Of a stretch of 64,000 bases of DNA, positions 57,524 to 64,000 are shown in pieces; positions within the stretch are counted from its first letter, which is position 1; every line of letters begins with the position of its first letter. This DNA is from Tsukamurella paurometabola DSM 20162 (GTDB lineage Bacteria; Actinomycetota; Actinomycetes; Mycobacteriales; Mycobacteriaceae), in contig NC_014158.1 of the NCBI RefSeq assembly GCF_000092225.1, forward strand, positions 3,782,001-3,846,000. The letters run 5' to 3'. A program made the position numbers and the translations under genes. A model generated the notes under the pieces. It ran no database searches, had not been told where the DNA came from, and saw only the letters and a program-made list of their open reading frames with translations.

Positions 57524-57819
57524 CCGTGGTCTTCGTAGTGACCGGCGTGATCCTCGTGGCCGCGGCGTTCATCACCGCCTACCGGCTCCTGGTGGGCCCC
57601 AACACTCTCGATCGAGTGGTGGCCGTCGACGCGTTGGTCGCGATCGCCATGGGCGGCCTCGCGGTGTGGGCGGCGTACAGCGGCAACTCGTCGGTGATCC
57701 CCGGCGTGGTGGCGCTCTCGCTCATCGGATTCGTCGGCTCCACATCGGTCGCCCGGTTCCGTGTGCCCGACGATGCCGGTACCGCCAAGCCCGAGAGTCC
57801 GAAGGACGGTGAGCGCTGA
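57520..57819 (+). CDS. mrpF: Mrp antiporter subunit F
   Basis: 99-residue subunit with three helices: VVFVVTGVILVAAAFITAY, VVAVDALVAIAMGGLAVWAAY and VIPGVVALSLIGFVGSTSVA. The motif RLLVGPNTLDRVVAVD is the family hallmark. Start ATG at 57520 overlaps the mrpE stop (ATGA); a longer frame reaching into mrpE was rejected. Confidence 0.94.
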   Translation: MTVVFVVTGVILVAAAFITAYRLLVGPNTLDRVVAVDALVAIAMGGLAVWAAYSGNSSVIPGVVALSLIGFVGSTSVARFRVPDDAGTAKPESPKDGER

Positions 57820-58151
57820 TGGTTCTCGACGTGATCGCAGCGGCCCTCATGCTGACCGGCGCCGTGTTCGCGTTGACGGCGGCGATCGGCATCGTCCGGT
57901 TCCCGGACACCCTCACCCGCATGCACGCGGCCACCAAACCGCAGACCATGGGACTGCTGCTCCTGCTCGGTGGTTCCGCGGTGCTACTGCGGCACTCGGT
58001 GGACGTGTGGATGCTGATCCTGGCCGGACTGTTCGCCCTGTTGACCGCCCCGGTGGTGGCGCACCGGGTGGGACGGGTGGCCTACCAGGAGCAGCGCCTA
58101 CGCGACAAGACGATCGCCGTCGACGATATGGAGACCGGCGCCCGGGATTAG
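57819..58151 (+). CDS. mrpG: Mrp antiporter subunit G
   Basis: 110-residue subunit with three helices and the hallmark GIVRFPDTLTRMHAATKPQTMG. Its ATG overlaps the mrpF stop (TGATG). Last gene of the Mrp operon; its final 4 nt overlap the end of the convergent PLP-enzyme gene, so no terminator lies between the two operons. Confidence 0.95.
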   Translation: MVLDVIAAALMLTGAVFALTAAIGIVRFPDTLTRMHAATKPQTMGLLLLLGGSAVLLRHSVDVWMLILAGLFALLTAPVVAHRVGRVAYQEQRLRDKTIAVDDMETGARD

Positions 58152-59158
58152 CGGGGCGCGGCGCGACCGGCCCACCGCATCCGGGACCACGGCAGCACCA
58201 CATCCTCGGGGCGCTGCACCAGGGCCGGCCCCGCGGGTACGGACCCGACCTCTCCCGACAGCACCGGTGCGTATCGGTGCCCTGTATCCGGCAGCACCTG
58301 GACGGTGACGTCCACGGGCGGTCCGTCCTCGGCGATCCGTTCGTGGCCGGCCGCGATCATGCCCGCACCCGAGGACAATCCGGCGAACACCGCGTGTTCG
58401 GAGAGCAGGGCGCGGGTACCGGAACGGGCCACCTCGAAGGAGATCCAGTGGATCACGTCGTACAGCCTGTGGCGCACGTTGTCGAACCGGATCGACGATC
58501 CGATCCCGGCGATCAGCATGTCCGGGTCGTCGACGTGCTCCGACCCGAACGTGATACTGCCGAAGGGCTGCACGCCCACCAGTTCGACGGTGAGCCCGGC
58601 GTCCTCGAAGCCCAGACGTAGCGCGCCACTGGAGACCCCGGAACCGACGGGCGCCACCAACCGCACCGAGGCCGCACCGGCGCGGGTCAGTTCGGCCGCG
58701 ACCGAGCGAGCGATGTCGCGATACCCGAGATAGTGCACCGGATCGTGGTACTGCCGCATCCAGTGCAGCGACGGGTTCTCGGCGAGCAATTCGCGGATGC
58801 GCTGCACCCGGCGGTCCTGATCCAGCTTGAGAGAGGCGGACGGCGGCATCTGTTCGAGGTCGACGCCCAGTGCGATCAGTTGAAGCCGTAGTGTCTCATC
58901 GATCGTGGTCGATCCCACTATCCGACACCGGATCCCGGCCTCATGGCAGGCCAGCGCGAGAGCGTAGGCGTAGATCCCCGACGAGGAATCGATGACGGTG
59001 CCGCCCGGCGCCACCCGCCCCGCCGAGATCGCCGCCGCGAGCGCCGCGCGAGCGGATGCCACCTTCATCGATTCGAAGCGCAGCAGATACCCGTCGTCGC
59101 GCGCCCGGATCAACGCCGGATTGCTGAGCGCCGCAGCGATATGCCCGACGGCCTTCAC
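58148..59158 (-). CDS. Cysteine-synthase-like PLP enzyme (fold type II)
   Basis: 336-residue PLP enzyme. The Schiff-base Lys lies in RFESMKVASARAAL, the phosphate or substrate loop corresponds to IDSSSGIYAYALALACHEAG, the glycine loop to PVGSGVSSGALRLGF, and GLSSGAGMIAA is the late serine loop. These match the order in cysteine synthase, SbnA and cystathionine beta-synthase, but the loops are unusual (SSSG instead of TSGNT), so it is not a housekeeping CysK. Fold-II enzymes of this group do beta-replacement on activated serine (O-acetyl- or O-phosphoserine). The gene just upstream encodes a small-molecule kinase, so a phosphorylated amino acid is a reasonable substrate. Last gene of the operon; ATG overlaps the kinase stop. 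Confidence 0.85.
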   Translation of the reverse strand: MKAVGHIAAALSNPALIRARDDGYLLRFESMKVASARAALAAAISAGRVAPGGTVIDSSSGIYAYALALACHEAGIRCRIVGSTTIDETLRLQLIALGVDLEQMPPSASLKLDQDRRVQRIRELLAENPSLHWMRQYHDPVHYLGYRDIARSVAAELTRAGAASVRLVAPVGSGVSSGALRLGFEDAGLTVELVGVQPFGSITFGSEHVDDPDMLIAGIGSSIRFDNVRHRLYDVIHWISFEVARSGTRALLSEHAVFAGLSSGAGMIAAGHERIAEDGPPVDVTVQVLPDTGHRYAPVLSGEVGSVPAGPALVQRPEDVVLPWSRMRWAGRAAPR

Positions 59159-60066
59159 GCCGCACCTCCGATCGGGACGGGCCGCGGACCGAGTCGCAGC
59201 CCCTGTTCCGCGGCGCGGATCCGGGTGCGGCGCAGACCTTCGGAGGAATGCGTATGCGGGAACAGCACACCGGCGACGTTGCCGGAATGAGCCACCTGGA
59301 CGCCGAGTGCGCCGCCGCTGTCCGCCACCGCGATCAGGGTCTCCAGTCCGGGTTTGTAGTGACGGCTCTGGTTGAGCCGGGCGCTCCGGGTCGCGACGGC
59401 GCCGACTCCGCGGGCGTCACCGGCACGGACCGCCGCGCGAAGTTCCTCACGCAGCTCCTCGTACACCGTGATGCCGGCGGCGCCGGCCAGCGGCAGGTCG
59501 AGCGTGTCCACGGGGCCCCCGAGCCGGCAGTGCACCAGGAGCATGGCGGGGAGGGCCTCGCCGAGATCTTCGATCACGTGTCCGTGCCGGTGCGCGAACA
59601 GCACCGGCCGGTCGGACCAGAGCGGATCCGAGGCCCCCTCGGCCGCGACGCTGAGCAATGCCAGCGCCTGCGTGTCGAGTTCGACGTCGGCAGCATCGGC
59701 GACGGCCCGTGCCGCGGCGAGCACGTCGGCGGTCGATGAGCCGAGTCCCATTCCGACCGGGATCGTTCTGTCGATGCGCAGTTCTCCTCCGGTGAAACGG
59801 ATCTCACCGCGTTCGCGGAGGTGCGCGATCGTCGCCCGGGCCGCGGCGCGGGCCTTGTGCAGGCGGCGCGTTCCGCCGGGGGCACAATGTGCGCGGACTG
59901 CGCCGGTGTGGTCGGGTACGAATTCGGCGACCGAGGTGAGGCTGCGCACCGGCACAGTTACCAGGCCGGGACATTCGCCGATCGCGGTGCAGTGGAAGCG
60001 TCCCTGGAGGAATTCGCCGTGGTGGCCGGTGCTGCGTCCCACACCACGGCCGCGGGCGCCCGCCAT
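59155..60066 (-). CDS. GHMP-family kinase (PduX/threonine-kinase-like)
   Basis: 303-residue kinase with the GHMP ATP-binding motif PVGMGLGSSTADVLAAARA (~residues 110-128). The N-terminus GRSTGHHGEFLQGRF matches the G-x-x-GE-x-x-QG start of PduX-type L-threonine kinases. A C-terminal GVQVAHSGNVAGVLF is the third GHMP motif. Likely substrate: a small hydroxy amino acid such as threonine or serine. Start is ATG 60066 overlapping the MFS stop (TGATG); the longer frame upstream is a shadow of the MFS gene. It feeds, I infer, the PLP enzyme encoded next. Confidence 0.85.
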   Translation of the reverse strand: MAGARGRGVGRSTGHHGEFLQGRFHCTAIGECPGLVTVPVRSLTSVAEFVPDHTGAVRAHCAPGGTRRLHKARAAARATIAHLRERGEIRFTGGELRIDRTIPVGMGLGSSTADVLAAARAVADAADVELDTQALALLSVAAEGASDPLWSDRPVLFAHRHGHVIEDLGEALPAMLLVHCRLGGPVDTLDLPLAGAAGITVYEELREELRAAVRAGDARGVGAVATRSARLNQSRHYKPGLETLIAVADSGGALGVQVAHSGNVAGVLFPHTHSSEGLRRTRIRAAEQGLRLGPRPVPIGGAA

Positions 60067-61268
60067 CAGATCGTCTCCGACAGCGGCATTCGGCGCACCG
60101 CGCGCCAGGCGAACAGCAAGGCGAGCAGCGTGGCCGCACCGAGGGCCAGCCCGACCCCGGTCCAGCCGCCCGCGGCGAGGGCGGCGCCCGCAAGGGAGGC
60201 TCCAGCGAACACCCCGATGCTCTGCGCCGCACCGTTGAGCGACAGGACGGTCCCCCGCACGGGACCGGCGGTCCTGACCAACGTCGTAGTGACGGCGGCC
60301 GCGATGACGGCGTGGGACGCGGATACCACGGCGACCATCGCCCAGGCGACCGGGACGATCGGGGCGGTGTACAGGAGCGTCATCGCGGCGGATGCGACGA
60401 TGACGGCCGCGGCCGCGAACCGGAGCAGGGTGCGCGCACTCCGATCCTGCATCACCCTGCCCCCGAAGAAGTTCCCGAGGAAGAAGGCGAGGCCGCTGGT
60501 CGCCCAGACCAGGGAGAACCAACCGGTGCCGATGCCGAACCGCTCGCCGAAGGCCGCCGCGATGTAGGCCAGTGACCCCATGAAGGCGAGGGTGCGCAGC
60601 AGGGAGATCGAGAGCACCTGCGGTGCACCGGGAATCGAACGGACGGCGCGGAACGCCTCGAGGTAGCTCACCCTGGTGTTCCCGCCGTTCGGATCACGGC
60701 GGCGGGCGAGGAGCACGGCGACCGCGAGGAGCACCGCAGCGGTCGCCGCCATATCGGCGCGCCATCCCCACAGGACGGCGGGCAGGGCGAGCACCGGCGC
60801 GGCGAGCACGGCGGTGAGCGTCATCGTCGAGGAGACCAGGGTAGCGGCACGCGCCGACGCGGCTTCGGAGTCGAACCGATCCGCGGCCATCGCCGACAGG
60901 GCCGGATTCAGCACTGCGGTCCCTGCCCCGATGAGCAGACAGAACGCGACCCACGCGGTGGTGCTGCCCTGCAGCGAAAGAGCGCAGCCCACGGCGAGGA
61001 CGAGCACCGCGAGCGCCGCGACGGCAGAGCGGGAGAGCCTGTCCAGCAGGGGCGCGGCAGCGACCCCCACGACCAGCGCGGCGACCCCGCCGAGCCCTCG
61101 GAGACCGCCGATCAGGTCGACCCCGGCGTGGGCGTCGGCGGCGATCGCCACGAGGAAGTTGGCCATGATGGTGAACGGCACGAGTCCGAGCGCGGCGGCG
61201 GCGAGTATCGGCCAGATCGCGCGGACGAGCACTCGATCGGGCAGTGGCCCGGCGGTGGGGGCATTCAT
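60066..61268 (-). CDS. MFS transporter
   Basis: 400-residue transporter with about 12 hydrophobic helices in two halves (first half to ~200, linker RRRDPNGGNTRVSYLEAFRAVRS, second half to the end). It resembles drug/metabolite efflux MFS proteins, like SbnD in the staphyloferrin B locus. The tight linkage (4-nt overlap with the DUF364 gene, 1-nt overlap with the kinase) suggests export of the small molecule made by the kinase and PLP enzyme. Direction of transport cannot be read from the sequence. Confidence 0.88.
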   Translation of the reverse strand: MNAPTAGPLPDRVLVRAIWPILAAAALGLVPFTIMANFLVAIAADAHAGVDLIGGLRGLGGVAALVVGVAAAPLLDRLSRSAVAALAVLVLAVGCALSLQGSTTAWVAFCLLIGAGTAVLNPALSAMAADRFDSEAASARAATLVSSTMTLTAVLAAPVLALPAVLWGWRADMAATAAVLLAVAVLLARRRDPNGGNTRVSYLEAFRAVRSIPGAPQVLSISLLRTLAFMGSLAYIAAAFGERFGIGTGWFSLVWATSGLAFFLGNFFGGRVMQDRSARTLLRFAAAAVIVASAAMTLLYTAPIVPVAWAMVAVVSASHAVIAAAVTTTLVRTAGPVRGTVLSLNGAAQSIGVFAGASLAGAALAAGGWTGVGLALGAATLLALLFAWRAVRRMPLSETI

Positions 61269-62059
61269 CGCGCACCCCGGTACAGGTACATCGGCGAGGC
61301 GTCGGCCGAGAATTGGGAGAACGGGAAGTGCTCGGCCGACAATGCAGACAGGCCGGAGCCGAGGAAGGCGCGTGCGACCGCGGCGCCGCTCTGCGCGTAG
61401 ACGGCCAGAGGGATGTCGCGGGCGCGACACGTCGCAAGAATCTCATCGAAAGTGCCGTTGCCCAGTGTCATTCCCGTGGCCACCACGGCATCCGCCCGCT
61501 CGATCACCTCACGGTGGTCGGCGAAAACGCGATCGTCCCACTGCGTGCGCTCCAGGTTCCGGTCCGCGAGCAGAGGCTCACCGCCACGCTCACGGATCGC
61601 CGCGACGAGCGGGTTGACCACCCCGATCAGCGCGACCCGGGCGCCGGCGGGAAAGGTGAGCAGTTCGGCGACGGCGGCGTCGCGGGCCTCGGCGCGGACA
61701 TCGGGGGTACCGGTGGGGAGAACGCGCAGCTCGGCGCGGGGGTCGTCGCGGTGCGGGGCACGAGCCCCGAGCGCGGCATCGGCCGCCGCGATTCGCACGG
61801 GCTGCGATCGATGCTCCAGCAAGGCGGCCAGTGGCTCACCGGAGAGGTCGGCGACGCTGCTGTCGAGTTCGCCCTCTTCGAAAGCACAGGCGCCGAAGGC
61901 ATCGGCGACCCGCACCAGTACGTACCGATTGCGGTAGCGGTGCGCGCTACCGGCGAGACGGGTTCCGTGGGTCACGAAGAATACGCTGCGAGCCACCTCG
62001 TCGCCCGCGACCTCCCGGGCCGACTCGACCACCTGGGCCACGGTTGCGGGTGCGGTCAT
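61265..62059 (-). CDS. DUF364 (putative heavy-metal chelation) family protein
   Basis: 264-residue protein. The N-terminal ~90 residues correspond to the DUF4213-like enolase-N-like part (FVTHGTRLAGSAHRYRNRYVLVRV, with LSGEPLAALLEHRS). The C-terminal part has GARVALIGVVNPLVAAIRERGGEPLLADRNLE and ADAVVATGMTLGNGTFDEIL, the nucleotide-like Rossmann half of DUF364. Proteins of this family occur next to metal transporters and are called putative heavy-metal chelators; no reaction is proven. It stands between the binding lipoprotein and the MFS gene, overlapping both by 4 nt. Confidence 0.82.
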   Translation of the reverse strand: MTAPATVAQVVESAREVAGDEVARSVFFVTHGTRLAGSAHRYRNRYVLVRVADAFGACAFEEGELDSSVADLSGEPLAALLEHRSQPVRIAAADAALGARAPHRDDPRAELRVLPTGTPDVRAEARDAAVAELLTFPAGARVALIGVVNPLVAAIRERGGEPLLADRNLERTQWDDRVFADHREVIERADAVVATGMTLGNGTFDEILATCRARDIPLAVYAQSGAAVARAFLGSGLSALSAEHFPFSQFSADASPMYLYRGAR

Positions 62060-63054
62060 CGGGCGGCTCCGCTCTGTTCGAGGTAGTCGGCGAGGGACGC
62101 CGCTGCATCCAGGTTGCGGGGCCCCGACACCAGTTCGGCGTAGTCGATGACACGGATCCGGTTCTCGCGCACCGCGGGTGAATCCTTGATCGGCGACTGC
62201 GTGCGCAGGTAGTCGATCTTCTGCTGTGCGGGTTGTTTGTCGTAGTCGACGATCACGATCACTTCCGGCTGTGCCGAGACCACCGATTCCCAACCGACGG
62301 CTGTCCACCGGGCATCGACATCGTGCGTCACGGACCGCCCACCGGCGAGCGAAACCACCTGGTCGGCCGCGGTTCGACGACCGGCGGTGTAGGGCTCGGC
62401 GGTGCCCGAGTCATACACCAGGACGGAGGGTTTCACCTCCTTACGGTCGGCGCGTTCCCGGAGAGCCCGCTCGCGGCCACGCAGGTTGTCCACCAGCGAT
62501 GCGGCCCGGTCGGGGACGCGGAACACGGCACCCAGATTGATCAGATCGGCGTAGGTATCGGCAAGCGGGTTCGCGTCGCGGGCGGTGGGCCGGTCACCGT
62601 AGTTGTAGCAGGTCTCCTCCTGCATGTAGCTGTTGATGCCGAGCTTGCCGAGGGATTCGGGGGTCACTCCGCGGGCCGGACTGAAGCCGGCCTGCCAGCC
62701 CGCGAACACCCAGTCGGCCTGGGCCGCGACGAGCGGCTCCTGGGTAAGCACGCCGTCGCTGAGGATCGGCACCTTGCTGTACTCGGCACGGTACGGCGAC
62801 CTGGCGATCACACCGTGGACGGTCTTCGGAAGGACGATGCCCTTGATCCGGTCGGTGAGACCGAGTGCGAACATCTTCTCGATGGCCGAGACGTCGTAGG
62901 GTACGGCCGCCGTGGGCGACGGGTATTGCTGGCGTACACCGCAGTTGGTGACCTCGATACGATCGGCGCCGTTGTCGGCGGTACGGGCGCCGCAGGCGGC
63001 GGTGACCGCGATGATCGCAGCCAAGCCTGCGGCGAGCAGGGAACGGGAGGGCAT
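62056..63054 (-). CDS. ABC transporter binding lipoprotein (FecB/BtuF type)
   Basis: 332-residue lipoprotein: signal RSLLAAGLAAIIAVTAAC with lipobox TAAC (Cys ~21). The mature part has the two-lobed fold of metal-chelate and cobalamin binding proteins (PYDVSAIEKMFALGLTDRIKGIV, EPLVAAQADWVFAGW, VGWESVVSAQPEVIVIVDY). Two further Cys occur (TNCGVRQ and EETCYNYGD). Ligand is unknown: iron, another metal chelate or a corrinoid. A GAAAGGA site precedes the ATG, 14 bp after the ATPase gene. Confidence 0.9.
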   Translation of the reverse strand: MPSRSLLAAGLAAIIAVTAACGARTADNGADRIEVTNCGVRQQYPSPTAAVPYDVSAIEKMFALGLTDRIKGIVLPKTVHGVIARSPYRAEYSKVPILSDGVLTQEPLVAAQADWVFAGWQAGFSPARGVTPESLGKLGINSYMQEETCYNYGDRPTARDANPLADTYADLINLGAVFRVPDRAASLVDNLRGRERALRERADRKEVKPSVLVYDSGTAEPYTAGRRTAADQVVSLAGGRSVTHDVDARWTAVGWESVVSAQPEVIVIVDYDKQPAQQKIDYLRTQSPIKDSPAVRENRIRVIDYAELVSGPRNLDAAASLADYLEQSGAAR

Positions 63055-63068
63055 GGTGTCCTTTCGGG

Positions 63069-63818
63069 TCAGAGCTCGAAGCTCACGCGCGGCCGCCCCT
63101 CGGCGGTGGGCACGATGGTGGGTCGGATGCCGTAGACGGCGAAGAGTCGTTCCGGGTCGAGCACGGATGCCGGGGAACCCGCCGCGACCACGGAGCCGCG
63201 ATCGAGCAGCACGAGCTGATCACAGCTCTGGGCGGCCAGGTCGATGTCGTGGATGGCCATGACGGTCGTCTTGTCGGTGCGGCGCACGTACCTCAGTAGG
63301 TCGATCTGATGCCGCACGTCGAGATGATTGAGCGGCTCGTCGAGCAGCAGCACCGGGGTGTCCTGCGCGAGCGCCCGCGCGATCAGGACGCGCTGGCGTT
63401 CGCCGCCGGACAGGTCGAGCACACTGCGCGCGCGCAGATGGCCGGTGCCGGTCGATTCCATCGCCGCGGCGACCGCCCGGCGCGCCCCCGGCGTACCCGC
63501 GTCGCCGTGCGGGAATCGCCCTAGCAGGACGGTCTCCGCGGCGGTGAACCCGAGGTGCCCGGTTTCGCTCTGGGTGACGGCCGCGACGAGGCGCGCACCC
63601 TCGCGCCGGTGGACCGTCGCAAGGTCGCGGCCACCGATGCGCACGGTCCCCGCGTCGGGAGTCAGCGCGCGGTAGAGGCAGCGCAGCAGTGTCGATTTTC
63701 CGCTGCCGTTGGGACCGATGAGTCCCACGTGCGCACCGGGTTCCACCTCGAGCCGGACGCGGTTGAGCACCGTCCGACCGCCCAGTGCGACCGTCACGCC
63801 GTCGATGTCGATCCTCAT
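63069..63818 (-). CDS. ABC transporter ATPase (FecE/FepC/BtuD type)
   Basis: 249-residue ATPase of a FecBCD-type importer. Walker A GPNGSGKST, signature LSGGERQR, Walker B VLLLDEPLNHLD and the H-loop AIHDIDLAAQ are all intact. The D-x-x-L-N-H-L-D string is typical of iron-siderophore, haem and cobalamin importers. ATG overlaps the permease stop (TCAT/ATGA arrangement). Confidence 0.95.
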   Translation of the reverse strand: MRIDIDGVTVALGGRTVLNRVRLEVEPGAHVGLIGPNGSGKSTLLRCLYRALTPDAGTVRIGGRDLATVHRREGARLVAAVTQSETGHLGFTAAETVLLGRFPHGDAGTPGARRAVAAAMESTGTGHLRARSVLDLSGGERQRVLIARALAQDTPVLLLDEPLNHLDVRHQIDLLRYVRRTDKTTVMAIHDIDLAAQSCDQLVLLDRGSVVAAGSPASVLDPERLFAVYGIRPTIVPTAEGRPRVSFEL

Positions 63819-64000
63819 GCGGCACCGCCGAGGAGTCCATCGCGTCGCCGCAGCAGGTAGAGGAACACGGGGACGCCGACCAGCGCCGAGACGATGCCGA
63901 GCGGCAACTCGCGTGGCGCCACGACGAGCCTGCTGATCAGGTCGACCCAGACCAGCAGCAGCGCACCCACCAGGGGCGCCAGCAGCAATACGCGGGAATG
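63815..64000 (-). CDS. FecCD-family permease, C-terminal fragment
   Basis: The last 61 residues of a permease that continues beyond the right edge of the window. Seen: LLAPLVGALLLVWVDLISRL (a membrane helix) and the family ending ELPLGIVSALVGVPVFLYLLRRR. This is the near-invariant C-terminus of FecCD/BtuC permeases. It is the upstream partner of the ATPase and binding lipoprotein, so the import system is complete at least in these parts; more genes of the operon may lie outside. Confidence 0.93.
   Translation of the reverse strand, partial: HSRVLLLAPLVGALLLVWVDLISRLVVAPRELPLGIVSALVGVPVFLYLLRRRDGLLGGAA

Follow-up and report, generated by a model that had tools for sequence, protein, structure and literature searches.

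We identified an operon at the end of a 64,000 nucleotide stretch of the chromosome of Tsukamurella paurometabola DSM 20162 (NC_014158.1, positions 3,782,001 to 3,846,000; hereafter the window), in which two putative biosynthetic enzymes and a DUF364 protein are combined with a presumed exporter and a FecBCD-type importer. The host genome comprises 4.48 Mb in two contigs and its nearest named relatives are Tsukamurella. The open reading frames on the minus strand confirmed the layout given in a preliminary description of this DNA, namely six full-length genes and a seventh truncated at the window end, joined mostly by overlaps of 1-4 nt. The order is permease, ATPase, binding protein, DUF364, major facilitator superfamily (MFS) transporter, GHMP kinase and fold-II pyridoxal phosphate (PLP) enzyme; five junctions overlap (by 4, 4, 4, 1, and 4 nt), and a single 14-nt gap lies between the ATPase and binding protein genes. 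The features are as follows.

63815..64000, minus strand: FecCD-type ABC permease, 3' part, stop at 63815 (open reading frame; whole-protein tblastn matches in relatives)
63069..63818, minus strand: ABC ATPase of the importer (ABC_tran, 109 bits, Pfam)
62056..63054, minus strand: substrate-binding protein of the importer (Peripla_BP_2, 50 bits, Pfam)
61265..62059, minus strand: DUF364 protein (PF04016, 45.5 bits, gathering cut-off 23; co-inherited with kinase and PLP enzyme)
60066..61268, minus strand: MFS transporter, presumed exporter (MFS_1, 94 bits, Pfam)
59155..60066, minus strand: GHMP kinase, presumed amino-acid hydroxyl kinase (GHMP_kinases_N, 47.5 bits; alignment of relatives)
58148..59158, minus strand: fold-II PLP enzyme, SbnA-like (PALP, 100 bits; best NCBIfam model SbnA; K32 invariant in 20/20)

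The permease gene extends beyond the window, with its called start 873 bases outside at L009:7874 (L009 denotes a locus of the own genome) and an alternative TTG start further upstream at L009:7910, giving an open reading frame of 364 amino acids. The MFS gene starts with ATG at 61268 and encodes 400 amino acids. The GHMP C-terminal domain of the kinase barely passes its Pfam cut-off (21.7 vs. 21 bits), and all best NCBIfam models of the ATPase are below cut-off. For the binding protein, the F420-0 model (160 of 392 bits) and the EitA model (93 of 640 bits) both remained under cut-off, and the nearest solved structures are 4mlz and 4n01; identity with EitABCD was rejected because the EitA score is so far below its cut-off. 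Pairwise dN/dS ranged from 0.11 to 0.30 for six genes, with two comparisons per gene. At its downstream end, the PLP gene (58148-59158) overlaps by 4 nt with the end of a convergent MnhG-type gene (57819-58151).

A DUF364 alignment was used as query against the genome collection; this identified 281 relatives, of which the best 80 were analyzed (the 80 loci below). Gene presence was scored by profile search of the locus DNA, and some loci end at contig ends. The operon is real and not a chance arrangement, as all seven named Tsukamurella loci (L061-L067), T. tyrosinosolvens and a genome of 2.2 Mb from a different genus of the family (L181) carry these seven genes in identical order. Among the 80 loci, 12 gave matches to every one of the seven operon proteins (L061-L070, L075, and L114); of these, the Tsukamurella loci (seven), three loci from Kocuria/Rothia and L075 keep the gene order of the window. 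DUF364, kinase and PLP enzyme occurred together in 60/80 loci, and DUF364 with PLP enzyme but no kinase in 18/80, so that the PLP enzyme was near DUF364 in 78/80 and the kinase in 61/80; L121, which ends at a contig end, has DUF364 and kinase, and L074 has DUF364 alone. The MFS family was present in 72/80 loci and an importer in 69/80. A sample that was not anchored on DUF364 gave a PLP match at E ≤ 1e-20 in 25 of 197 genomes of the class; among 12 of its loci whose PLP enzyme has 43% identity or more, DUF364 was present in nine and a kinase relative in nine. The preliminary description had depended on kinase and PLP homologs being linked with the transporter elsewhere, and in many genomes they are indeed linked with DUF364 and transporters.

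Of 301 genomes of the host's family, 30 contain DUF364 relatives, among them 12 genomes of its own genus; in the family of genome G197 they were found in 134 of 297, a count in which the window type is pooled with the two other cassettes described below. Taxa with DUF364 relatives include Streptomyces, Nocardiopsis, Amycolatopsis, Tsukamurella, Kocuria, Rothia and others. In a tree of the PLP enzymes, those of the window, T. tyrosinosolvens (L010), L181, L068, and L070 grouped together with support of 95/99, within a clade of window-type enzymes (25 rows, support 100/100). Kinase-linked enzymes were not firmly united (78/50), and window-type enzymes with and without a kinase were intermixed. 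The T. tyrosinosolvens locus is on a plasmid record (NZ_LR134468.1, 'plasmid 26') in which superoxide dismutase, deformylase and Mnh antiporter genes are neighbors, as on the window chromosome, and this record may represent chromosomal DNA deposited under a plasmid label. A 2.4 Mb genome (L318) contains a degraded cassette with the PLP match in pieces and the Zur-like site retained.

Among solved structures, SbnA is closest to the PLP enzyme, in agreement with the likeness drawn in the preliminary description. Residues K32, Q136, and Y137 are kept in 20/20 aligned relatives. K32 aligns with the lysine of the SbnA SMKD motif, and Y137 with a tyrosine in SbnA chain 5d84 and a phenylalanine in 5d87. 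The substrates of SbnA are O-phosphoserine and glutamate. The kinase carries the GHMP motifs in both Pfam and the alignment, and its HGEFLQG stretch may resemble PduX; no PduX-named model was among the NCBIfam hits. The first structure paper on DUF364 proposed that it is an enzyme connected with the chelation of metals or with siderophores (PMC2954201). A conserved FPFSQFSA stretch is present in DUF364. DUF364 might catalyze a second condensation or a tailoring step, a suggestion made with low confidence.

Co-inheritance was assessed by correlating pairwise distances (rho) among the 46 loci having all six proteins. The distances of DUF364, kinase and PLP enzyme correlated with one another at rho 0.93-0.94, the corresponding range for binding protein, permease and ATPase was 0.86-0.90, whereas rho between the biosynthetic and the importer sets was 0.31-0.41. 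Host kinship lifts every rho, yet it leaves the gap separating within-set from between-set values unexplained. Because DUF364 is inherited together with kinase and PLP enzyme, it is assigned to the biosynthetic unit and not to the importer. The importers of the 80 loci were FecBCD type one in 34, FecBCD type two in 32, Opp-type alone in three and none in 11, with Opp-type genes additionally present in four FecBCD loci. The two FecBCD types were split on binding-protein identity, and the second may contain unrelated importers. As judged from these sequences, the importer is exchangeable between cassettes, a point which goes beyond the preliminary description, as do the co-inheritance of DUF364 and the likely metal.

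The promoter lies 0.9 kb beyond the window, where a palindrome (L009:7888-7902) is located 13 bases upstream of the called permease start; the alternative TTG start would place it within the gene. An IdeR, Zur or MntR box had been named as a feature to look for upstream of the permease, and the palindrome is of the Zur type. It agrees with the Zur 21-mer of actinobacteria at 14 of 15 fixed bases and with the Zur box of Streptomyces at 10 of 11 fixed positions, both motifs as quoted in PMC5472717. These published motifs were used to scan both ends of intergenic regions, and a site with at most 4 mismatches to the 21-mer was present in 76 of 157 cassette promoter regions, compared to five of 428 other regions; block shuffles of this test gave 0.06% and 0.14%. 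Counted by locus, 67 of the 76 with a scannable cassette promoter reached this limit. A scan with a TGANAATNATTNTCA-type motif at 2 mismatches gave 66/157 cassette and 8/428 other regions; this motif was fixed after the cassette promoter sites had been seen, and where divergent intergenic regions were long the scan covered a single end, losing some sites. Control by iron was rejected as no IdeR-like site at 5 or fewer mismatches was found in the intergenic DNA of L009.

The operon shares its Zur box with zinc genes of the same genome, which contains 16 sites for TGANAATNATTNTCA at 2 mismatches, compared to two for the reversed control. Fifteen of these were viewed, nine intergenic and six within genes. 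The best site (0 mismatches) is upstream of an AztD gene (400 bits, cut-off 400), another is upstream of a gene for a ZnuA-family protein, and a third lies between a CobW-like gene and genes for zinc-free L28, L33, S14, and S18 (names assigned by eye). The L33 of this set has no cysteine and its L28 has one; a second L28 copy carries two CxxC pairs. A Zur-like site with 1 mismatch was also observed inside a coding region (G000:C1:1661122-1661136, L208). Zur-like cassette sites recur in Tsukamurella, Rothia, Nocardiopsis, Amycolatopsis, Kibdelosporangium and the 2.2 Mb genome, and a FUR-family gene was near the cassette in 9/80 loci (Pfam confirmation for one). From the Zur-type operator, zinc is the most likely metal of the cassette, and Zur would bind the predicted operator and repress the operon when zinc is present.

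DUF364 was also found in other gene sets. A second cassette (L182-L197 and L252-L271, e.g., L184:4813-11116) consists of genes for an ATP-grasp ligase, DUF364, PLP enzyme, a member of the enolase superfamily, MFS, a methyltransferase and an Opp- or Fec-type importer, with a kinase in some loci; it is present in 15/20 of L252-L271, and all four loci checked (L184, L194, L252, and L260) have a Zur-like site with 1-2 mismatches. A third, minimal set (L263, L264, L265, L269, and L270) has DUF364, PLP and MFS, with Opp genes in two, and no Zur-like site was found at 2 mismatches in any of these five loci. Streptomyces relatives (L102, L108, L115, L116, L119, L126, L130, and others) encode a methyltransferase-like protein of about 250 amino acids without a Pfam match, present in 41/80 loci. 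Other additions in such relatives are the FUR-family gene mentioned above and the 2-oxoglutarate (2OG) oxygenases TauD (12/80) and PhyH (6/80).

Taken together, the operon is probably a Zur-controlled metallophore system for zinc starvation (a zincophore system) that operates without a nonribosomal peptide synthetase (NRPS) or an NRPS-independent siderophore (NIS) synthetase. This rests on evidence from sequence: gene content, conserved linkage, the two modules, the shared Zur-type operator and the conserved PLP lysine. When zinc is scarce, Zur would leave the promoter and the operon would be read. The GHMP kinase would phosphorylate the side-chain hydroxyl of serine or threonine, and the SbnA-like enzyme would eliminate the phosphate and add the amine of an amino acid, giving an N-linked amino polycarboxylate on which DUF364 may perform a further biosynthetic step. 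The MFS protein would export the ligand and the FecBCD-type importer recover the zinc complex. We infer the substrates, the product, the DUF364 reaction and both directions of transport from the gene families. The preliminary description had outlined a similar scheme, of which the linkage, the likeness to SbnA and the lack of NRPS and NIS genes in the operon stood, and the kinase substrate, the nucleophile, the aminopolycarboxylate product and export by MFS stay at the level of prediction.

Several observations weigh against the zincophore interpretation. Nine of the 76 loci fall short of the 4-mismatch limit for the Zur 21-mer, and among the 15 own-genome sites viewed, besides the six intragenic ones, five intergenic sites have no evident zinc link. 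The loci are not independent, many being Streptomyces with near-identical sites, so that the counts overstate independence. No DUF364 relative was found in four listed own-genus genomes. The SbnA family model (TIGR03945) is missed widely by the PLP enzyme (117.4 bits vs. a cut-off of 349.95). No importer was found in the locus DNA of 11/80, and the kinase is missing in the 18/80 with DUF364 and PLP, contig ends accounting for some cases of both; because of these 18 loci the kinase step is not regarded as indispensable.

With slightly less than even confidence, we propose that the cassette represents a distinct and widespread class of actinobacterial zincophore systems, built around DUF364 and an SbnA-like enzyme, to which an amino-acid kinase may or may not be added. 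In such a class DUF364 would be a dedicated builder of the ligand, which would be a small N-linked amino polycarboxylate of the aspergillomarasmine type, and this core would be reused in several cassettes that differ in importer (FecBCD of two types, or Opp/Nik-like) and in tailoring genes (for a methyltransferase-like protein, 2OG oxygenases, an ATP-grasp ligase and enolase superfamily members). Searches of open-licence papers, judged mostly by their listings, brought up no account of this cassette. If true, DUF364, so far tied to metal chelation by a suggestion in PMC2954201, would gain a biological setting, and a compact synthetase-free pathway for zinc scavenging would be added, one that searches for NRPS or NIS genes overlook. 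The proposal predicts zinc repression, a defined operator and a small ligand that is lost on removing either of two genes.

The operon could instead be the already described aminopolycarboxylate (Aes) pathway for ethylenediamine disuccinate (EDDS) or ethylenediaminesuccinic acid hydroxyarginine (EDHA), which we consider unlikely. According to passages in PMC4993170, PMC6103462, and PMC9252823, EDDS is a Zur-controlled zincophore made outside the NRPS and NIS routes, and aes homologs are reported in several actinobacteria (PMC10702961). The system proposed here would share the SbnA-like logic. In PMC10702961 and PMC8914351, EDHA is presented as a siderophore that responds to iron and has an aesA-D operon, and the TauD-like gene near the cassette in 12/80 loci is conceivable for its hydroxyarginine. 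The window PLP enzyme is SbnA-like with a PALP domain, though under the SbnA cut-off. However, the ethylenediamine part of both compounds needs a decarboxylase, judging from their names, and no decarboxylase or OCD (SbnB-type) family was found by Pfam among the six complete window genes, a comparison that takes L306 and L309 as its standard. These two loci, both of the presumed Corynebacterium genus, fit better as candidate, unverified EDHA/EDDS (Aes) operons: L309 (4282-12580) has OCD-family, decarboxylase, SbnA-like, MATE and FecBCD genes and two IdeR-like sites with 4 mismatches, and L306 (5696-14918) has TauD, OCD, decarboxylase, SbnA-like, MATE and Opp genes and a Zur-like site with 2 mismatches. 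They likewise have transporter genes alongside, and from the picture of Aes drawn from L306 and L309 the window differs in having kinase and DUF364 and no decarboxylase or OCD-family gene. When 151 genomes of that genus were searched, the window-type PLP enzyme was found in two, in one of them as a broken copy. Thus the window cassette is likened to the aminopolycarboxylate zincophores, as it would work alike, and provisionally set apart from them by the lack of the decarboxylase. An operon of PLP enzyme, FAD protein and LysA-type decarboxylase (L302) received no support as an Aes candidate, the FAD protein being found in 0/392 Streptomyces and 0/25 other-genus genomes (no positive control). 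In L302 (4155-7854) and L307 an SbnA-like enzyme (338.8 bits, cut-off 349.95), an FAD/NAD(P) protein and a LysA-type decarboxylase are consecutive, and L304, L308, and L316 have genes of similar size.

It is rather improbable that the FecBCD importer takes up a foreign chelate which kinase, PLP enzyme and DUF364 then degrade or strip of its metal. Such salvage would suit an operon that joins importer and enzymes, as here, but the two modules differ in history, the MFS family is present in 72/80 loci, and a kinase with an SbnA-like enzyme is, by family, of a building and not a degrading type. We give very little credence to a zinc-sparing role, in which kinase and PLP enzyme replace zinc enzymes of amino-acid synthesis: Zur regulons do contain zinc-free stand-ins, such as the ribosomal genes of this genome, but the MFS transporter and importer (72/80 and 69/80 loci) would be left without a role. 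Corrinoid salvage by a PduX-like kinase with BtuFCD, the alternative raised in the preliminary description, can practically be dismissed: binding protein and ATPase are weakly similar to B12 transporters, but no Rfam cobalamin riboswitch was found in L009 (E up to 1) or seven relatives (gathering threshold), the BtuF model scores 43.9 bits against a cut-off of 234, the PLP enzyme is fold II, and the promoter has a Zur-type operator.

The zincophore system proposed here resembles three further systems in part. In the staphyloferrin B locus, which includes SbnA, SbnB and SbnI, the SbnI kinase activates serine; the PLP enzyme of the window is nearest to SbnA and both loci have an exporter and an importer. 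In contrast, the window has no SbnB, its kinase is of the GHMP type, and no NIS synthetase was found among the six complete operon genes (Pfam) or the adjoining called genes (by eye). Clusters of kinase, PLP enzyme, ATP-grasp and ArgH (e.g., L012, L013, and L014) have a GHMP kinase 36-43% identical to that of the window beside a related PLP enzyme, but contain ATP-grasp and ArgH in addition and are without DUF364 and importer in the stretch viewed. A kinase relative was found in 73 plasmid records; in seven of the 10 viewed a PLP enzyme adjoins the kinase, and in three ATP-grasp and ArgH are beside them. ArgH would release fumarate from an aspartate adduct, which would make aspartate the amine donor in those clusters, a step with a parallel in friulimicin and pacidamycin. 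A diaminobutyrate lipopeptide cluster with cysteine-synthase and argininosuccinate-lyase genes, absent from a second such cluster, is described in a passage of PMC12471526. The window operon has no ArgH, and therefore the adduct itself could be the ligand. In rhizobia and relatives (L321 and L322), GHMP kinases of this group were observed beside NTP transferase, CDP-alcohol phosphatidyltransferase and asparagine-synthase-like genes, which belong to a different pathway. Finally, in fungal aspergillomarasmine synthesis a cysteine-synthase-like enzyme couples an activated serine to an amino acid, whereas the system of the window is bacterial and has its own kinase, DUF364, transporters and a Zur-type operator.

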